64,000 bases of DNA from Verrucomicrobiia bacterium (lineage in GTDB: Bacteria; Verrucomicrobiota; Verrucomicrobiia; Verrucomicrobiales; Akkermansiaceae). Position numbers and translations under genes: made by a program. The notes beneath the pieces are model-generated. The model was not told where the DNA came from, made no database searches, and saw only the letters and a list, made by a program, of their open reading frames with translations. How positions within the stretch are numbered: position 1 is the stretch's first letter; each line of letters opens with the position of its first letter. Shown here one piece after another: positions 19,465 to 28,825 of this stretch. The stretch is taken from contig JAUIGV010000016.1 in assembly GCA_030432565.1 (NCBI GenBank), positions 62,001 through 126,000 of the forward strand, read 5' to 3'.

Positions 19465-20664
19465 TTACCAGCGACGTCGGTCGCGGGAGGTGACGCGCTT
19501 TTGTTGTGCTTCGTTGAGGCCGCTGTTGGAGAGCCATTGTTTGGCGGCCTCAGGGTCCTTGCGGAAGTAGGCCCGCCCGGTTTCCACAAGGGCGTTGGCG
19601 CGGGTACCTTCATCGGAAATGGTATTGGCCCACTCGACTGCCGCGGCGGGATTTTCCCAGGCGACGCGGGTGGCATAGCCATAAGTGGCGGAGTCGCGTT
19701 CAGGTGATGCGCTCATCGAGCCAAGTCGATCAGCGGCGGCTTGTGGATTAGCACGTGCCCATTCGGAAAAGGATTCACGCATGGCCCGGTTTTTGCCGTT
19801 TCCTTGCGGAAGGGTGTTGGCCCAATCGAGCGCGGCAACCGGATCATCTTCGGCGTATTCCTCGGCAACCCGGCGGATGGCGGCATCCTGCATTTCTCCG
19901 GAGGGCAGGGCGGTGGCCCAGTTGGCCGCTTCGGCGGGATTTCCACTCTTAATGACCTGGCGGGTGACGAGATCCATGAGACGGGAAGCTTCGCGGTCGC
20001 CTGCTTCCTGTCGGTCCATGGCGAAGCGAACGGCAAGATTGGGATCGGCATCGATCAATCCGTAGACGGCTCCCCACTTCATCCCGCTGCCGTTTTGAGC
20101 ATCGGGCTCAAGGCTGTTGAAGTAGGCAAGCGCGGCGTCGGGGTCCGAAGCCGTCCAACCCGCGAGGGTGGTCGCCATGTCCCGCTCGGGAGTTTCAGCT
20201 CCATTGAGGACAGCTTCCTTGCCGGCGATGGCGCCCCACTGATAATGGAAGTCACGGAACTCGGAGCTGTTCGAGTCGAGATGAATGATTTGCTCGCGCA
20301 TGAGCTTGGCATTCTCGGGCGTCAGGTTGGCGAGGATTTGGTTGAAAAGCTCCCGGCGTTCGAGGGGCGTTTTGGCTGCTTTGAGCTCGATTCCGATTTG
20401 GCGGATTTCGTTTTCGGAGAGTTCGGCGCTTCCGGTTTCTCCTGTCGCGGTGATGTCACGACTCCGGCTGACGGAGCGCGAATTTCCGGGGCGGCTGGAA
20501 TTGGTGCGGTCTGATCGGCTGGAAAGGCTGCTGCCCGAGGCGCTTCCTCCCTCTGCGCTTGCCGATTCATCATTGGTCGCCGGGCCGGCTTTTTGGGAAC
20601 CGATGGCAAAGGCAGCAACAGCAACCAGAGCCCATAACAGGTGAACAAGGTAAGATTTTTTCAT
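19465..20664 (-). CDS. Signal-bearing helical-repeat protein ('DPxAAxxWA' family), copy A
   Basis: The protein has 399 residues. The N-terminus MKKSYLVHLLWALVAVAAFAIGS is a signal peptide or membrane anchor, followed by a Ser/Arg/Gly-rich linker (about 25-75). The rest is alpha-helical, with irregular units of about 30-35 residues centred on DPDAALAYFNSL, NPAEAANWATALP, DPVAALDWANTLP, NPAAAVEWANTI and DPEAAKQWL. The pattern resembles TPR/HEAT-like solenoids for protein binding. It is closely similar to the gene at 21147-22325, sharing MREQI, SEFRxFHYxWGAIAG, RDMAxxLAGW and ATYGYAT. The two flank a small lipoprotein gene. No enzymatic motif was seen. The C-terminus (RVTSRDRRRW) differs from its sibling. 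Confidence 0.8.
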   Translation of the reverse strand: MKKSYLVHLLWALVAVAAFAIGSQKAGPATNDESASAEGGSASGSSLSSRSDRTNSSRPGNSRSVSRSRDITATGETGSAELSENEIRQIGIELKAAKTPLERRELFNQILANLTPENAKLMREQIIHLDSNSSEFRDFHYQWGAIAGKEAVLNGAETPERDMATTLAGWTASDPDAALAYFNSLEPDAQNGSGMKWGAVYGLIDADPNLAVRFAMDRQEAGDREASRLMDLVTRQVIKSGNPAEAANWATALPSGEMQDAAIRRVAEEYAEDDPVAALDWANTLPQGNGKNRAMRESFSEWARANPQAAADRLGSMSASPERDSATYGYATRVAWENPAAAVEWANTISDEGTRANALVETGRAYFRKDPEAAKQWLSNSGLNEAQQKRVTSRDRRRW

Positions 20665-21146: not shown

Positions 21147-22325
21147 CTACTTTCCGCCGGTGATTCGCTGGATTGCTTCTTCCGGAAGGTTGGAGTTTGC
21201 AAGCCATTCCTGCGCGGCTTCGCGGTCTCTGCGGTAAAAGACGCGGCCCGTATCGACCATGGCATTGGTGCGATCTTTCGGGTCCTTGATGTTGGCGGCC
21301 CACTGGACTCCGGCAGCAGGCTCCTTGTGGACGACGCTGGTGGCGTAACCATAAGTCGCGGCATCCTGCTGATTGATGGGGAGTGAATTGATGGCACTGG
21401 CCGCCTCCCTGGGGTCGCGGTTGGCCCAGTGGTGGAAAGAAGTTCCAACGGCGTGATTTTTACCTTCGCCTTCGGGAAGGCTGGTGGCCCAATCGACCGC
21501 CTCGGCTGGATTCTCCTTGGCGAAGTCTCCGGCAATTTTTTGAAAGGCGGTGTTCTGCAGGTCTCCCTCGGGGATGTTGGCTGCCCATTGAGTGACCTCT
21601 TCGCGGTCTCCTGATTTCATCGCGGCAGCGGCGGCAATGTGGATCATTTTACCGGCGTCCTTGTCACCGTTTTGTGAACGTTCGATGGCGAATTCGGCGG
21701 CGAGTTGCGGGTCGGCGTCGGCGAGTCCGAAGGCGGCTCCCCACTTCATAAGGGCGCCGTTGTTTTGTTCCCCGGGTGTCAGGCTTTCGAAGTAGGCCAT
21801 GGCTGATTGAGGATCTTCGGAAGCCCAGCCCGCGAGGGCGGCGGCCATATCGCGTTTGGGAGTGTCCTTCCCGTGTATGATGGCTTCATCTCCGGCAATG
21901 GCCCCCCAGGCATAATGGAACTCGCGGAATTCGGCAGAGTCTTGTGGCATGTGGGCGATCTGCTCGCGCATCTGCCGGGCATTTTCCGGAGTGAGTTGCT
22001 TCAGCATTTCCGCAAAGGCGAGCCTACGCTCGATGAGGTTGCCTTCTTTGAAGATGGCTCCAAGTTCGGCAATGCCTTCTTCAGTGAGAGGGGCATTCTC
22101 TTTCGTTTCAGATGTGGTTCGAGATTTGGAACGGGTTGACTTCGCTCGTCGGGTTGAGCCGTCTTCGCCCGAAGTCTCGGCTCGACGATTGCCCGGGCTG
22201 TTTATCCCGCCCTCTTTTGCTCCGGCGGATTGCTCAGGATTGGAGGAATTGATTTTTGAACCCACCACAAAAGTGGTGACGGCCACGAGTGCCCAAATGA
22301 GGTGGTGAAGCATGTTTTTTTTCAC
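21147..22325 (-). CDS. Signal-bearing helical-repeat protein ('DPxAAxxWA' family), copy B
   Basis: The protein has 392 residues, with the N-terminus MKKNMLHHLIWALVAVTTFVVGS as anchor or signal, then a low-complexity Ser/Thr/Lys/Arg linker. The helical repeats include DPQSAMAYFESL, DPQLAAEFAIE, NPAEAVDWATSLPEG, DPREAASAINSLP and EPAAGVQWAANI. The body aligns with copy A without large gaps. It probably heads the minus-strand set copy B - lipoprotein - copy A. Local duplication is the simplest explanation. The function is unknown; a solenoid scaffold is inferred. Confidence 0.8.
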   Translation of the reverse strand: MKKNMLHHLIWALVAVTTFVVGSKINSSNPEQSAGAKEGGINSPGNRRAETSGEDGSTRRAKSTRSKSRTTSETKENAPLTEEGIAELGAIFKEGNLIERRLAFAEMLKQLTPENARQMREQIAHMPQDSAEFREFHYAWGAIAGDEAIIHGKDTPKRDMAAALAGWASEDPQSAMAYFESLTPGEQNNGALMKWGAAFGLADADPQLAAEFAIERSQNGDKDAGKMIHIAAAAAMKSGDREEVTQWAANIPEGDLQNTAFQKIAGDFAKENPAEAVDWATSLPEGEGKNHAVGTSFHHWANRDPREAASAINSLPINQQDAATYGYATSVVHKEPAAGVQWAANIKDPKDRTNAMVDTGRVFYRRDREAAQEWLANSNLPEEAIQRITGGK

Positions 22326-22365: not shown

Positions 22366-25300
22366 CTACTCTTCTGAAAGATTACGAAGTTGGGTGGTCA
22401 TCTCTTTCCGTTGGGCGGGTAATTCCTCGAGCTTGGTTTTGTTGGTGACGAAGGTATTTAGGAAGCGATAGAGGTCACCAAGAGATTTACTCCAGTCCCC
22501 GGAGACGACATCGATTGGCAATTCACGCCGATGGTTGCGCAGGGTGGTGGGGGCTCCGTTTTCGAGAAGAGTTTTGACGATTCCGCTGCGACACATGAAG
22601 GCGGCGGTGTGGAGGGCGGTGTTACCATCGCGGTTGGGCTTTTTGATGTCTGCCTTGTGCTCGAGAAGAAGGCTAACAATTTTCGGATGTCCGTGAAGAG
22701 CGGCGCTCGCGAGGGGCGTCATGCCATTTTCCTGATGGAGTCGATTGACGGGAGCGCCGAGTTTGAGGTGCCTTTTGACCCGGGCGATGCTGCCGCTGGC
22801 GATGGATCTTTCGAGAAGGTTGCGGAGCTGGTTGGGATCGTTATCGGGAGTCGTTCTGACGTCTTCTGCTTTTTCGGCAACGTGGAAAATGAAGTCGTTA
22901 CTGAAGAGTCCCTGGGCGTTCTGGATTTGAAGAAAGTGAAGGCCATTGGGGGGAAGTGAGTCGAGGGTGATGGCAATGGTTTGAGCCGTGCCTTTCTTGA
23001 TCGAAGCTTGGGCGCGGCGACCGTCGATGATGACATGGGCGTCTTCGGTGACGTGCCGGGCATTCACGGTCATGGTTTGGTTTCCGTCTGCGAGAATCGG
23101 GAATTGCTGTCGGCCGCTTTGCTCGTGAATGGGGCTGAGGGTCCAGAGGGCGGGTTGAGGGATGAAGAAACCGGAGTGGGCTCCGTGGCGGGCGGTGAAG
23201 GTTCCGAGGAATTTTCCCTCTTGTGCGAGAGAGATTAATTGGTCGCGAGTGAATTCCTGACGGGTCCCGTCGATTTGGATGTAGCGACTGTTTTGAAATT
23301 GCAGGGTGAGGCCTTGTCCATCGAGGAGGGCATCGACTTGCAGGACGACAGCTTCCTCGGAGGCGGAGGCCTCGAGGGCGGGGAGGAGGTCCCGGGTGAG
23401 GTCTTGCCTGGCGGTTTTCCGGTTGAGGGTGAGTTGTCTGGCGAAGGTGCCGGAGTAGCCGGTGCTGCCTTCCAGGACCATTTCCCAGACGGGGTCGAAG
23501 CGGGGTTTGCTTCGCCAGGAAAAGCGCCAGAGGTCCTTCTCGGGAATCCCTTTTTCGGCGATGTTACGGTAAAAATCGAAGTCGATGATGTTGAGCCGAC
23601 CTTGTGGAAGGATGAGGAAGCGATCGTAGGCTCCCCGCCAGGTTGGTGCATCCATTCCGGTGCCCGGGGTGTTGGTTGAAACGAGGAAAGGCATGCGGTG
23701 GCAGTCGCCGCACACGTTGGGTTGCGGTTTGCCTTCGTGGTTACCTTTGATGTGGAAAAGTTTGAACCCGTCTTCGGCGCGCTTTGAGAGGACGTTGGTG
23801 TAGGCTCGCTTTTGGGCAGGAGGATAGGGGATGGCGAGGAGAAAGCGTGTCATGTAGTAGCGCTCGTTCCGGTCGAGCAGGTCGCCCCTTCCGGTGGCGG
23901 TATCGCCAAGGGCCATGGTGGATTTTAGAGCGCCGTCGACGACATGGCGAAGGGCGTTATCGGGGCTGGAGCCGTCGACATTTGGTGGGATGTGACCGCG
24001 GACATTGGCACTGTTGTTTCCGCCATAGGGATCGCCGGGAATGCCGTCCCAGTGGAAGGGCTCGGTATCACGAAGTCCGCGAAGCGGCATGGTGGAGCGA
24101 GGCTGGATTTGGTTGCCACCGGAAACAATGGGTGTTTTGAGAACCCAGAGAAGTTGGTCGGTGTGTCCATCCGGGTGGCAGCTGGCACAGGAGAAGGTTC
24201 GGGTGCTGGAGGCGTTGGCGTTATTGAAGGCGATGCGGCCGCGCTTGAAGGGGGCGGGGGTGGGGTCGTCGAGCCGGGTGGTGGATTTCACGACAGGTTT
24301 TTGCAGATTGGAGAGATCGACGAGTGACACGGAGTTTTCCACGGCATTGAGAATCCAGGCTTGAGAGGGTGTGCCGTTTTCGCTGGATCGGAGGGCGATG
24401 CCCCGGGGGACGGAACCCACTCTGACGTGACCCATGACTTTGCCGCTGGCGGTGTCGACGGTAAAAACCTTGTCCGAGCTGGCGGCGGTGGCGATGAGAG
24501 TTTTGTCGTCGGGACTAACCTCGATGGCGAAGGGCGTGGCGAAGGCTTCCTGTGGAATAATCCTTTCGGAGGGAAGGGGTTCGAGGTTGATGATGCTCGA
24601 ATCCTTGGCGGCATCTTTTTCAAAATCGACCCGGGTGATTTGGTTGAGAAAGGCACGGTTTTGGAGTTGGGCGAGTCCGTGTTTTTTCGTTCCGGAGCGT
24701 CCATTGATGTGATTGCGTGCGTCGGTCTGGGCGACGAAGACGGAGCCTTTTGAGTCGACGGCGAGGCCGTAAAGAAGCGTGCCAAGGGTCTCGACGGTTT
24801 CGATGAGTTGATCGGTTTCGGTGTCGAAAACGAAGAGGTCTTTGTCGGGGACGTCGGGGTGTTTGACGATGTCGACGACGTGTCCAAGTGAGAGGACGTT
24901 GTTATGGGCGATAGAGTGTTCGTGGGCGTTGAAGGTGACGAGGTCGCCATCAATTTTAGACCCGCCGGAGAGCTGGGACTTGTTGTTGGATTCGAAGGGG
25001 ACAACGTAGAGTTTTCCATTTCGGACGGTGATGGCGCGGGGATCCTGGGCGGGGATGGAGAGGTGCCTGGTGACCTTGCGGGAGGCGACGTCGATGACGG
25101 CGATTTTGTTTTCTGACGAGAGGGCGACGTAGGCTTTTTGATTGCTGCCAAAGGCGATGCCGACGGGCTCGTCGAAATTGGTGGAACGTTTTTCGAGATC
25201 CATGTCTTGCACGGTGTCGATGACGTGGAGATGCGTTGGGCTCCCGGGATCGGTGTCGATGACGCTGATGGAATCCGAGATGTGGTTACTGACCCAGGCC

Positions 25301-25605
25301 TCGAGGCCGTCGGGTCGGATCGCGATGCTGACGGGGTCGATGCCAACGGGGATTCGTTTGATCAGGCTGTTCGAGTTGGCGTCAAAGACATCAACAGTAT
25401 CGGCTGGGGTGTTGGCGACGAAGAGGCGGTCGTGGTGGAGGACGATAGGCTTGAAGTGAGGGCTGAGGAAGGAGGGGTGGCCCACTTTGGCGGGGGGAGG
25501 AGGCGACTGGTCACCGGAGGTGTTCTTTCGATCGCGGGCGGGAAGAAGCCAGACCCCCAGAATGGAAAAAGTGATGAGGATGAATCCGGCAAGAAGGCGT
25601 TTCAT
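22366..25605 (-). CDS. YVTN-type beta-propeller / c-type cytochrome / ankyrin-repeat fusion protein
   Basis: The protein has 1079 residues. I chose ATG 25605 because MKRLLAGFILITFSILGVWL is a signal/anchor; the frame upstream to 25752 is non-coding. Residues about 45-440 carry YVTN-like propeller blades (LFVANTPADTVDVFD, EAWVSNHISDSISVID, KAYVALSSENKIAVID). Haem-binding CASCH (about residue 472) and CGDCH (about 632) motifs place two c-type haem sites in a peroxidase-like electron-transfer region. A beta-rich segment follows, then C-terminal ankyrin repeats (about 935-1055: NGMTPLASAALHGHPKIVSL, DGNTALHTAAFMCRSGIV, GAPTTLRNHRRELPIDV). It should act outside the cytoplasmic membrane. The electron partners and substrate are unknown. 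Confidence 0.87.
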   Translation of the reverse strand: MKRLLAGFILITFSILGVWLLPARDRKNTSGDQSPPPPAKVGHPSFLSPHFKPIVLHHDRLFVANTPADTVDVFDANSNSLIKRIPVGIDPVSIAIRPDGLEAWVSNHISDSISVIDTDPGSPTHLHVIDTVQDMDLEKRSTNFDEPVGIAFGSNQKAYVALSSENKIAVIDVASRKVTRHLSIPAQDPRAITVRNGKLYVVPFESNNKSQLSGGSKIDGDLVTFNAHEHSIAHNNVLSLGHVVDIVKHPDVPDKDLFVFDTETDQLIETVETLGTLLYGLAVDSKGSVFVAQTDARNHINGRSGTKKHGLAQLQNRAFLNQITRVDFEKDAAKDSSIINLEPLPSERIIPQEAFATPFAIEVSPDDKTLIATAASSDKVFTVDTASGKVMGHVRVGSVPRGIALRSSENGTPSQAWILNAVENSVSLVDLSNLQKPVVKSTTRLDDPTPAPFKRGRIAFNNANASSTRTFSCASCHPDGHTDQLLWVLKTPIVSGGNQIQPRSTMPLRGLRDTEPFHWDGIPGDPYGGNNSANVRGHIPPNVDGSSPDNALRHVVDGALKSTMALGDTATGRGDLLDRNERYYMTRFLLAIPYPPAQKRAYTNVLSKRAEDGFKLFHIKGNHEGKPQPNVCGDCHRMPFLVSTNTPGTGMDAPTWRGAYDRFLILPQGRLNIIDFDFYRNIAEKGIPEKDLWRFSWRSKPRFDPVWEMVLEGSTGYSGTFARQLTLNRKTARQDLTRDLLPALEASASEEAVVLQVDALLDGQGLTLQFQNSRYIQIDGTRQEFTRDQLISLAQEGKFLGTFTARHGAHSGFFIPQPALWTLSPIHEQSGRQQFPILADGNQTMTVNARHVTEDAHVIIDGRRAQASIKKGTAQTIAITLDSLPPNGLHFLQIQNAQGLFSNDFIFHVAEKAEDVRTTPDNDPNQLRNLLERSIASGSIARVKRHLKLGAPVNRLHQENGMTPLASAALHGHPKIVSLLLEHKADIKKPNRDGNTALHTAAFMCRSGIVKTLLENGAPTTLRNHRRELPIDVVSGDWSKSLGDLYRFLNTFVTNKTKLEELPAQRKEMTTQLRNLSEE

Positions 25606-25982
25606 GGCGTAATCGTGGCTTATTTGTTGAGGGGAAATTGATTTTCGTCCGCCCATCGACGGGCTGTTTAGGGATCGCGGCGATTCCAGCTTTCGAAGGT
25701 GTCTCGGGAGATTTCGCTGCGAGATGATGGAGAGGTGATCTTTAGCGATCATTCGACGACACTGCGAGGATCGAATTCAATGGCGGTGTCGGCGATGACT
25801 CCAGAAAGAATGGGGATGACGGAAAGGGGGTGGGAGCGAGTATTGGATTGGGGGTGCGACGCTTGGCGTTGGGTTAGTTTTCATTAAAATGTAGAACGAA
25901 GCCTTTTGAGAGACATTTCCTGTTTTATACACCCGGGGAGGCATCCTCGACAAGGTCTCGATTCCCCTGTTAGTTTTCAGCT

Positions 25983-26310
25983 ATGGAATCACCACAGAAC
26001 CCGTATCAAACACCGGCGAACCCATCAGCGGGTGCTCCCCGGATGCCTCCTCAGCAATCATCGATTGTTCCAAAGTTTTTTTGAATCATTCACATTATTT
26101 TCGCTGCGCTTGGCGGTATTGCAGGTCTTCTTGGTCTGGGTGCAGGTGCCTTGATGACTGCTGCCTTTGGCCATGTCACGGACGAGGAAAAAAATGAATG
26201 GCCAGGATGTCGGGTCGATAAGTGCGGTCGATCGCATTCTTTCCCTGAACTCTTTATCGGGGGGCTTGGAAGGGTTTTTCAAAGAGGGGGAACTGGTATT
26301 TTATGAGTGA
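25983..26310 (+). pseudogene. Broken small membrane-protein gene (in-frame TGA plus poly-A frameshift)
   Basis: From ATG 25983 the frame reads MESPQNPYQTPANPSAG and continues to VPKFF, then meets TGA at 26082-26084. Directly after it the same frame continues as a convincing membrane segment (IIHIIFAALGGIAGLLGLGA). A one-base shift at the A7 run near 26188-26194 then restores another coding stretch (NGQDVGSISAVDRILSLNS) that ends in TGA at 26308-26310, overlapping the next gene's ATG at 26303. TGG to TGA plus a homopolymer indel explains both lesions. Sequencing error or recoding are alternatives. The rest of the gap 25606-25982 holds nothing I can support. Confidence 0.65.
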
Positions 26311-27889
26311 ACAGAGATATCATTTTTTAGACGGGCTTCGTGGGGGAGCGATGTTGCTGGGACTTTTGCTGCACGGGGTGCTTTCCTTTGCAGGCATCGG
26401 GGCCTGGCTGGCAGCCGATGTGAAGTCGGTTCCGGAGATCATCCTGCCGTTTATTGATTGGATCCACGGCTTTCGGATGCCGCTCTTTTTTATGGTGAGT
26501 GGGTTCTTCACGACGATGGTGTGGCGGAAGCGGGGAACAGGTGGTGTGGTCAAGCAGCGGCTTTTACGCATTGGGGTGCCGCTGGTCCTTGGGGTGATTG
26601 TTATTTTTCCATTGATGACCGGGTTGTGGGTGTGGGGTGAGCAGGTGAAGAAGGAGCGTCGTGAGCTTGCGGGGCCTGGGAGGGGTGATTTGCCGTCGGC
26701 GGTTTTGCGCGGGGAGATTGAGGAGGTTCGCGAGCTGCTTCGAAATGGCGGTGATTCCAACAGCAGGGATGGGAATGGCACCCCTTTGCTTCATCTCGCG
26801 GCAATCATTGATGATGGCGAAATGGTAGAGTTCTTGTTGGAGCAGGGAGCCGATTTGGAGGGACGGGGGATGGACGGCGGGACCGCATTGATGACAGCTT
26901 GTTTTTTCGGAAGAGAGGAAGCGGCCCTGGCTTTGCTTGAGGCCGGAGCCGATGTTTCGGCGAAGGATTCCAAGGGAGCAACGGCGATGCAGGCCGCAAA
27001 AGCGGACTTTGAGTTTGTAAAAGCAGTAGCGGGCCAATTTCAGATTGAAGTGACTGCGGAGCACGAAAGTGCGCGGGAAAGATTGATTGGGGCGCTGGAG
27101 GATGCCGGTGCGGAGGGAAGCGGGGAGAGTGATACCTCCTGGTATTGGGCGGGAGTGTTTTGGCCGGTCTTCCATCACCTTTGGTTTCTCTATGATCTTT
27201 TGTGGCTCCTGTTGTTTTTTGTTCCGGCTGCCTTGATTGCGAAACGCCTTGGCAGACGCCTGCCTGATTTTATGATTGGCGTGCCGGGATGTTTGCTTTG
27301 GCTGATTCCGCTGACGTGGTGGCTGCAGAATTTGATGCCCGGCCAGTTTGGTCCTGGAACCTCGACGGGAATCTTTCCGTGGCCGGTCAAGCTGGCCTAC
27401 TATGGCGTTTTCTTTTTCTTTGGCGCCCTGTGTTTTGGTCGCGGCTTTTGGGAGGAGAGTGTTGGAGCCAGGTGGTGGGTCTGGCTTTTGGCGTCTCTCC
27501 CTTTTTGGTGGTGGGGGCGGGAGTGGGTGAAGAACGATCCGCTTTGGGGCTCTCTCATGGCGTCGTGCTTCGCCTGGTTGACGATCGTTGGGATGATGGG
27601 CTTGTTCCGTCGCTTTCTGAATGAGGGACGTCCCAAAGTGAGGTATCTTTCAGACTCCTCTTATTGGCTTTATCTGGCTCACCTCCCTGTGATGATTACA
27701 GTGCAGATTTGGATCAGTGATTGGGAGATTCCGGTCATCTTAAAAATGGTGATTGTCATCGGCGGAGTAACCGGTCTGCTCTTGTTGATTTACGAATTTG
27801 CGGTTCGTTACACTTGGATTGGAGCTCTTCTCAATGGTCGAAAAAGCAGGCCGGTGACGCCACCACCCCAGCCCGGCGCGTCTCAATAG
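26303..27889 (+). CDS. Membrane acyltransferase (acyltransferase 3 family) with an internal ankyrin-repeat block
   Basis: The protein has 528 residues. The N-terminus RYHFLDGLRGGAMLLGLLLH matches the family's first-helix motif, with the catalytic-type His in helix 1. Next come IHGFRMPLFFMVSGFF and RLLRIGVPL, both family hallmarks. Residues about 130-240 are a soluble insert with ankyrin repeats (GTPLLHLAAIIDDGEMVEFL, GGTALMTACFFGREEAALAL, DSKGATAMQAAKADFEFV) between early membrane helices. At least six further helices follow, ending with SYWLYLAHLPVMI, another family signature. These enzymes O-acylate sugars or envelope glycans. The start overlaps the end of the broken upstream gene (ATGAGTGA), suggesting former coupling. 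Confidence 0.88.
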   Translation: MSEQRYHFLDGLRGGAMLLGLLLHGVLSFAGIGAWLAADVKSVPEIILPFIDWIHGFRMPLFFMVSGFFTTMVWRKRGTGGVVKQRLLRIGVPLVLGVIVIFPLMTGLWVWGEQVKKERRELAGPGRGDLPSAVLRGEIEEVRELLRNGGDSNSRDGNGTPLLHLAAIIDDGEMVEFLLEQGADLEGRGMDGGTALMTACFFGREEAALALLEAGADVSAKDSKGATAMQAAKADFEFVKAVAGQFQIEVTAEHESARERLIGALEDAGAEGSGESDTSWYWAGVFWPVFHHLWFLYDLLWLLLFFVPAALIAKRLGRRLPDFMIGVPGCLLWLIPLTWWLQNLMPGQFGPGTSTGIFPWPVKLAYYGVFFFFGALCFGRGFWEESVGARWWVWLLASLPFWWWGREWVKNDPLWGSLMASCFAWLTIVGMMGLFRRFLNEGRPKVRYLSDSSYWLYLAHLPVMITVQIWISDWEIPVILKMVIVIGGVTGLLLLIYEFAVRYTWIGALLNGRKSRPVTPPPQPGASQ

Positions 27890-27925: not shown

Positions 27926-28825
27926 ATGACAACCATGGTAAAAACACTTTTGACATCGGCTTGTTTTGCAATGCCTGTTTTGGGCGCGCTTGAAATCAAG
28001 GACACCGAAGGAAAGCACCTTGATGTGCTTTCGGATGGCAAGGTCGTCGTGCGCTACATGTATGAGCATGATACTTCAACGCCGGAGAAACATCATGCCA
28101 CTTACAAGCCGTATCTCCACGTCTTTGATGCCGAGGGAAAGATGCCGATCACCAAGGGGCCGGGGGGACAATTTACGCACCACCGGGGAATTTTCATCGG
28201 TTGGAGCAAGATCAAGGCGAACGGCAAGAGCTATGACCGTTGGCACATGAAAGGAGGTGACATTGTTCACCAAAAGTTTTCAAAGCAGGAGGTGAATGAC
28301 GGGTCTGCAACCTTCACTTCGGTGACCCATTGGATGGATGAAAAAGAGAAGCCGTTTTTGGAAGAGGCCCGGACATTTACCGTGACCGAAGGTTTGCACG
28401 GCGGGCGGGTGATGATCGACTTTCATACGAAGCTGACGCCTGTTGATGGAGATGTCTTTTTGAAGGGTGATCCCGAACACGCCGGTGTGCAGTACCGCCC
28501 GGCAAACGAGGTTGATAAGAAGAAGACCAAGTATCTCTTTCCGAACGGCGTGACCAAGGTGAAGGGCGTGAAGGATCTTCCCTGGGCGGCCGAAAATTAC
28601 ACCCTTGCCGGGAAGCAGTATGGTGTCGTGCACATGAATGCTCCGACCAATCCGAAGGGAACCGTGCACTCCGCCTACCGCGACTACGGTCGCTTCGGAG
28701 CTTTCTTTGAGAAGGAGATCAAGAAGGGTGGGTCGCTTGAACTCTACTATGGATTCCTGATCCTCGACGGAGAGCTGCCATCGGTTGAGAAGATCGACGG
28801 CGTTTGGGAAAAGTGGTCGAAGTAG
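27926..28825 (+). CDS. DUF6807 (PmoA-like) exported protein
   Basis: The protein has 299 residues with a signal peptide (VKTLLTSACFAMPVLGA; ATG 27935 is an alternative start). The body matches the PmoA-like/DUF6807 pattern common in Planctomycetes and Verrucomicrobia: VRYMYEHDTSTP, YKPYLHVFDAEG, FTHHRGIFIGWSK, DRWHMKGGDIVHQ, a GVQYRPANEV segment, WAAENYTLAGKQYGV and a DYGRFGAFFE segment. Despite the historical name, these are not methane monooxygenase subunits. They are thought to belong to sugar or glycan utilisation loci. It stands alone, converging on the lipoprotein gene downstream. Confidence 0.87.
   Translation: MTTMVKTLLTSACFAMPVLGALEIKDTEGKHLDVLSDGKVVVRYMYEHDTSTPEKHHATYKPYLHVFDAEGKMPITKGPGGQFTHHRGIFIGWSKIKANGKSYDRWHMKGGDIVHQKFSKQEVNDGSATFTSVTHWMDEKEKPFLEEARTFTVTEGLHGGRVMIDFHTKLTPVDGDVFLKGDPEHAGVQYRPANEVDKKKTKYLFPNGVTKVKGVKDLPWAAENYTLAGKQYGVVHMNAPTNPKGTVHSAYRDYGRFGAFFEKEIKKGGSLELYYGFLILDGELPSVEKIDGVWEKWSK

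Follow-up and report, generated by a model that had tools for sequence, protein, structure and literature searches.

The genes and features at the locus are listed in Table 1; by the window we mean the whole stretch of DNA that was analysed, 64,000 nucleotides of a genome called G000 here. The original prediction was that one gene in this stretch encodes an acyltransferase 3 (AT3) with a block of ankyrin repeats inserted between its membrane helices. The Pfam search confirmed this, both domains scoring over their curated cut-offs. That is, Acyl_transf_3 (PF01757) matched the protein in two stretches with 96.3 bits (cut-off 31), and Ank_2 (PF12796) matched residues 133-222 with 55.5 bits (cut-off 27.3). 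At E <= 0.01, the Pfam matches of the window protein did not include the SGNH domain (PF19040). The best NCBIfam match was MdoC (NF003014) with 121.4 bits, which is below the equivalog cut-off of 338. MdoC was also the best NCBIfam match of the ankyrin-less relative L021, with 160 bits against the same cut-off.

Table 1. Positions of the AT3-ankyrin gene, its parts and its neighbours in the window
Feature	Position	Strand	Description and basis
AT3-ankyrin gene, ATG start, 528 aa	26303..27889	+	MdoC/OpgC-like acyltransferase-3 with internal ankyrin domain; ORF limits, Pfam, NCBIfam
TM1-TM3, aa 1-116	26303..26650	+	Holds D10xxR13-x10-H24, F62xxxxG67 and R86xxR89; 19-row alignment A1
Ankyrin domain in the TM3-TM4 loop, aa 128-273	26684..27121	+	Reads as three canonical repeats plus a degenerate fourth/cap; Pfam, AlphaFold2, structure alignment, residue conservation
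TM4-TM10, aa 278-515	27134..27847	+	G374 in TM6, S450xxxY454 in TM9; Pfam, alignment A1, AlphaFold2
Island divergent from the nearest genome, G003	25787..27920		Gene at 70-82% nucleotide identity (250-bp intervals) within a 96% block; the 0.5 kb or so upstream of it did not align
DUF6807 (PF14100) gene, starting 36 bp 3' of the AT3-ankyrin gene	27926..28825	+	Pfam
Protein with beta-propeller, two CxxCH motifs and C-terminal ankyrin, 1128 aa, divergently oriented neighbour	22366..25752	-	

The helix-1 and terminal AT3 signatures had been noted as intact, and the alignment agrees with an intact-looking core. Ten residues, D10, R13, H24, F62, G67, R86, R89, G374, S450 and Y454, were each invariant in 19/19 rows of alignment A1. 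They are the residues of the motif list given for the TmAT superfamily in the motif description of PMC12423673 (DxxRx10H in TMH1, FxxxxG in TMH2, RxxR at TMH3, Gly in TMH6 and SxxxY in TMH9), where they are assigned to a conserved acyl-CoA site; G374 was matched to the Gly of TMH6 by its place in TM6. Alignment A1 was made from 19 of the 31 gathered AT3 ORFs. Of the others, four bear the insert (L015, L019, L023 and L037) and eight lack an internal one (L033, L034, two of L035, L036, L038, L040 and L041); the fragments L016 and L025 lay outside the 31. Judged from these residues, the AT3 core looks intact.

The whole window protein was modelled with AlphaFold2 on the 19-row family alignment, with a mean pLDDT of 82 and a pTM of 0.69, which leaves the orientation of the ankyrin domain to the pore loose. 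When the window protein itself was used for the structure search, the match list was filled by the ankyrin part. The fold of the core was judged on L021, which is 54% identical to the window protein and gave a model with a pTM of 0.87. Foldseek ranked human HGSNAT first for this model (E 0.064), and no match reached E <= 0.001. The fold match stands on a second structure aligner, which aligned the model to HGSNAT with Z 14.0 over 285 residues at 5.2 A and to GWT1 with Z 11.0, the remaining, unrelated structures scoring 3.4 or less. In its predicted model, this ankyrin-less relative thus has the ten-helix fold of the TmAT superfamily.

Structure prediction also agreed with the proposed nature of the insert, which is modelled as an ankyrin fold. 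The model of the window protein shows helix pairs over about residues 128-273, and the best PDB alignments of this part are ankyrins and DARPins (Z 19.7, rmsd 1.7 A, 125 residues). By ten-residue block, the pLDDT is 70-95 over the ankyrin stretch 131-270, 56 in the linker before it and 54-55 in the linker after it. The three units placed originally at about residues 130-240 can be recognized as three canonical repeats; the span is longer than was first thought, and in the model the domain reads as these three repeats followed by a degenerate fourth with a long loop between its helices. Conservation was counted over 47 of the 48 insert-bearing rows, the doubled-block L090 being dropped and inserts longer than 260 aa being cut at 220. 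The weighted values were 79% for F201 and 97% for R258. These two positions lie beyond the usual ankyrin repeat pattern and are candidates for a contact surface or a cap. Across divergent relatives, the identity was 60-77% in the ankyrin part vs 72-82% in the AT3 part. The ankyrin part therefore evolves only moderately faster, so that no positive selection is shown. Ankyrin repeats are common in G000, with 19 Ank_2 matches on 5 contigs.

In order to express the site of the insert in numbers, we used the spacing between TM3 and TM4. It was 166-209 aa in 45/48 insert-bearing ORFs, the exceptions being L090 with 333 (the doubled block) and L037 and L148 with 408 each (the C match starts late). 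In 17/19 ankyrin-less AT3 ORFs it was 15-39 aa; the other two, L041 and L100, gave 106 and 295, and in these the C domain was matched only partly. The AT3-ankyrin proteins L037:890-3352, L148:637-2982, L039 and L134 have a longer C-terminal half, as if it held further inserts, and reach up to 821 aa in total. According to a published computational model (PMC9833829), the TM3-TM4 loop of OafB is a mobile re-entrant plug that closes the acyl-CoA pore on the extracytoplasmic side. The position of the insert would thus suit the proposal that it might gate the active site.

We then considered the side of the membrane. In the loops of the window protein, the ankyrin domain excluded and the loop limits set by hand from the AlphaFold2 helices, there are 21 Lys and Arg residues on the expected inside vs 7 on the outside. 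The inside count was the larger in 19/19 rows, the narrowest being 17:15 in L039. According to the topology description in PMC12423673, the DxxR of TMH1 faces the cytosol in the TmAT superfamily, which would leave the TM3-TM4 loop outside. Because of the charge bias and this published topology, the ankyrin insert is most likely, as a prediction, on the periplasmic side of the inner membrane.

The architecture is not confined to one genome. Of the 386 genomes searched in the order, at least 47 had a single profile match that ran through the insert, from model position 10 or lower to 463 or higher. The same insert is therefore present in homologues, as a homologue search had been expected to decide, and there was no frameshift signal. 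Since one match spans the insert in so many genomes, the architecture is no artefact, and a frameshift or an assembly chimera is rejected; that is, AT3-ankyrin is a standing subfamily of the order and not a one-off oddity. In an even sample of the phylum, such a match was found in 2/387 genomes, the window genome and G310, which belongs to another order of the same class. In both counts, at most 3 candidates were scored per genome. A wider scan of contigs, whose sensitivity was low, gave one full-length relative, L001, whose contig is identical with G003:C34, and one match to the ankyrin part alone, L002.

A tree was built, with the insert removed, from 73 distinct AT3 ORFs with matches to both halves and a length of 200 aa or more; before this selection, the N half was matched by 74 ORFs and the C half by 76. 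The set contains several long branches, and the groups were named after the tree had been seen. All 48 insert-bearing ORFs fell into one group with support 93/90, under the tool's star. Two ankyrin-less ORFs, L087 of G008 and L136 of G852, are nested in the same group; L087:6595-7815 is the same gene as L021. An internal-ankyrin clade that shuts out these two was rejected with a p-AU of 4.8e-33, and therefore the insert was probably lost twice. The nested position of the two also means that the enzyme can probably do without the ankyrin domain. L087 and L136 would be useful as natural ankyrin-less controls. The ankyrin block is doubled in one member, L015, which is identical with the gene L090.

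A second type of ankyrin-bearing AT3 was found in 6 ORFs, in which the repeats follow an extra helix beyond the AT3 domain. The extra helix would place these C-terminal ankyrins outside as well, by a helix count that is crude: at the threshold used, hydropathy gave ten helices, not eleven, before the ankyrins in 4/6 of the ORFs. L035, which is of this type, has MdoC as its best NCBIfam match (111 bits), and G310 has both types. The internal and the C-terminal types occupy separate places in the tree. Tree proof of two ankyrin gains was not obtained, since one joint clade is not rejected (p-AU 0.448). Thus it is the difference in insertion site, and not the tree, that speaks for separate events or a relocation. 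The other AT3 genes found in G000 itself are an AT3-SGNH gene on C74 (L098), an AT3-only gene on C54 (L099) and a related AT3 without ankyrin on C37 (L033/L100).

In order to see how the gene has changed among close relatives, we compared the window with the nearest genome, G003. In the block at 11025-37538, 102 intervals of 250 bp were comparable, with a median identity of 96%. Only 7 of the 102 were below 85%, and all of these lie within the AT3-ankyrin gene. Four intervals of the block were not comparable: two lie near 33.5-34.0 kb and two just upstream of the AT3-ankyrin gene, where an ECF-sigma-like gene is present in G003 but not at this place in the window. Outside the block, the 64-kb window had no colinear match on the G003 contig. 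The dS value of the AT3-ankyrin gene was 1.55, vs 0.07-0.17 for six neighbour genes, and dN/dS over the window gene was low at 0.08. Comparison of the nucleotides thus points to a whole-gene swap inside a block that is otherwise 96% identical.

A second comparison, of G005 with G002, gave a different pattern. The two ends of the gene and its flanks, 4 kb to the left and 2.2 kb to the right, are 85-100% identical, and about 700 bp over TM3 and the ankyrin domain drop to 53-79%. These 7 intervals of 100 bp each are the only ones below 80% in the alignment. Against G002, G009 and G018, the dS of G005 was 1.26-1.44 in the loop and ankyrin; it was 0.14-0.19 for the C part and, for the N part with TM3 included, 0.43-0.52. 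The edges of the replaced segment are near aa 80 and aa 300. As read from these alignments, the TM3-ankyrin segment alone was replaced in G005 within an otherwise near-identical gene. The exchange is thus seen twice at the sequence level, once as a module swap and once as a whole-gene swap. Comparison with the 73 AT3 ORFs revealed no donor for the segment in G005. Close pairs were compared from 76% identity upward, several being too diverged to judge, and flanks were compared for window/G003 and for the set G002/G005/G009/G018. In the trio G002/G009/G018 and in the pairs L147/L150, L120/L122, L037/L148 and L118/L121 there was no module swap; in L120/L122, it is the ankyrin that is better conserved.

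From these data the ankyrin module appears exchangeable, having been swapped once by recombination, doubled once and probably lost twice. The fact that it was swapped at least once between related bacteria suggests that the ankyrin helps to choose the target of the enzyme. We propose the following scheme. Acyl-CoA would enter the AT3-ankyrin enzyme from the cytosol, and the acyl group would be handed over to an acceptor that lies outside the cytoplasmic membrane. The TM3-TM4 plug loop would carry the four-unit ankyrin domain, held in the periplasm, and this domain would dock a periplasmic partner or the carrier of the acceptor directly above the pore. In this way the ankyrin may set the acceptor specificity, the occupied ankyrin may move the pore plug, and swapping of the module may change what is acylated. 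We consider it somewhat probable that the ankyrin is a periplasmic, exchangeable module on the gate loop, which would dock the acceptor or a partner and so would act on specificity and gating. The earlier suggestion that the insert tethers a partner agrees with the module exchange in G005, and the docking is the part of it that we infer. A bolder form of the scheme can be put forward only tentatively: the periplasmic ankyrin in the plug loop would read the acceptor or its carrier and open the plug, and the bacteria would swap the TM3-ankyrin cassette and so alter the acylation of their surface, in possible analogy to the swapping of target-recognition domains elsewhere.

Other explanations of the ankyrin domain should be weighed against this scheme. 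On the periplasmic face it might serve as a structural spacer or for self-association, that is, as an oligomer contact or a stabiliser, with no say in the choice of acceptor. The ankyrin fold is common, two nested relatives do without it, and the divergence is moderate, not strong, in most pairs, all of which would suit a spacer. However, a spacer would not call for replacement of the entire module, as seen in G005, nor does it require conserved residues such as F201 and R258, and the second ankyrin-AT3 type places the block elsewhere; we therefore regard this explanation as rather doubtful. It is also conceivable, and in our judgement unlikely, that the ankyrin docks a separate periplasmic SGNH-like transferase which finishes the reaction, like the fused SGNH domain of OafB. 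In AT3-SGNH proteins the last step is done with a periplasmic domain, according to the account of these fusions in PMC9558356, and the AT3-SGNH protein encoded on C74 is in the same genome. On the other hand, none of the 8 window proteins scanned with Pfam was an SGNH protein, and MdoC and OpgC are described in the same account as stand-alone AT3 proteins (PMC9558356).

The two remaining alternatives concern the location of the domain and the reality of the swaps. Most known ankyrin domains are cytosolic, and the region just before the repeats contains 3.4 Lys and Arg residues on average, as would suit an ankyrin that lies in the cytosol and regulates the entry of acyl-CoA or binds a cytosolic source of it. 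The 21:7 charge bias and the cytosolic DxxR of TMH1, which leaves the TM3-TM4 loop outside, oppose this, and a cytosolic ankyrin is thought very unlikely. As to the swaps, the linker and the tail evolve fast, and the apparent exchanges might reflect fast or relaxed evolution of the gene and not recombination. But in G005 the dS in the middle of the gene exceeds that of its C part seven- to nine-fold, and in window/G003 the dS of the gene is at least nine-fold that of its six neighbours while dN/dS stays low. We think that fast evolution is a highly improbable cause of these patterns.

The exchangeable docking module proposed above can be compared with known systems. The window protein resembles MdoC/OpgC, the succinyltransferase of osmoregulated periplasmic glucans, in its best NCBIfam match and in the stand-alone AT3 layout with 10 TM helices. 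Unlike MdoC/OpgC, it is far below the equivalog cut-off, has an internal ankyrin and comes from a genome without an mdoG match. The search for the glucan backbone genes was made for mdoG/opgG: MdoG (PF04349) had 0 matches in G000, which is 97% complete, and among 14 control genomes only E. coli matched. The classical osmoregulated periplasmic glucans are therefore unlikely as the acceptor, and their succinylation is unsupported as the function. With the AT3-SGNH proteins OafA, OafB and OatA, the window protein shares an AT3 core joined to an extracytoplasmic accessory domain, and the C-terminal-ankyrin AT3s seem to share their eleventh-helix arrangement. In contrast to these proteins, the accessory domain is an ankyrin and not a hydrolase, and it lies inside the TM3-TM4 loop and not at the C-terminus.

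HGSNAT and the TmAT superfamily share with the ankyrin-less relative the predicted fold described above and with the window protein the acyl-CoA site residues. HGSNAT is not known to have an ankyrin. It carries other extra parts, as stated in the domain description of PMC12423673. AnkB of Pseudomonas aeruginosa, an ankyrin-like protein of the periplasm, is required for full catalase activity, according to the review PMC10294975. It differs in being a separate protein and not a loop insert, and in serving catalase and not acyl transfer; by analogy, it may be taken as a precedent for a periplasmic ankyrin that supports an enzyme.

Searches of the open-licence PMC literature yielded no paper on ankyrin-bearing AT3s; the papers listed that contain the word ankyrin deal, judged from their titles, with docking, peptide binding and drug or molecule design. 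In a review of AT3 proteins (PMC9558356), SGNH is given as the most frequent fusion and alanine racemase as a further one, the word 'ankyrin' does not occur, and it is posed as an open question how AT3s without SGNH work and whether they need a partner. What should be new to a specialist is the site of the insert and its exchange, and not the presence of ankyrin. A familiar binding fold sits exactly on the loop that is thought to plug the pore. The ankyrin-less, doubled and swapped natural versions are ready variants for probing acceptor recognition and gating, and if the cassette reading is true, it would give a simple route to changing the acylation of the envelope.

Several observations were made on the other genes of the neighbourhood. 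The DUF6807 gene is the next gene after the AT3-ankyrin gene in 8/13 other ankyrin-bearing loci of the same genus, and its product is a possible partner. The gene for the beta-propeller/CxxCH/ankyrin protein, which is likely exported, was found near the AT3-ankyrin gene in 8/13 other ankyrin-bearing loci of the same genus, two of the five misses being on contigs shorter than 9 kb, and in 0/8 loci of other genera. This link is confined to the genus and may therefore be plain synteny. Between the two divergent genes, beyond its first part, the stretch 25787-26302 had no nucleotide match among the compared loci; one of its frames resembles pieces of a small membrane protein, and it may be a gene remnant. 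The window also encodes, at 19465-20664 (-) and 21147-22325 (-), repeat-rich, helical-looking proteins of a kind found in L042, L045, L046, L052, L089 and L094 as well. These proteins had no Pfam or NCBIfam match. They appear as several diverged copies around the locus, and in L001:3892-5841 a related stretch is joined to an ECF sigma factor.
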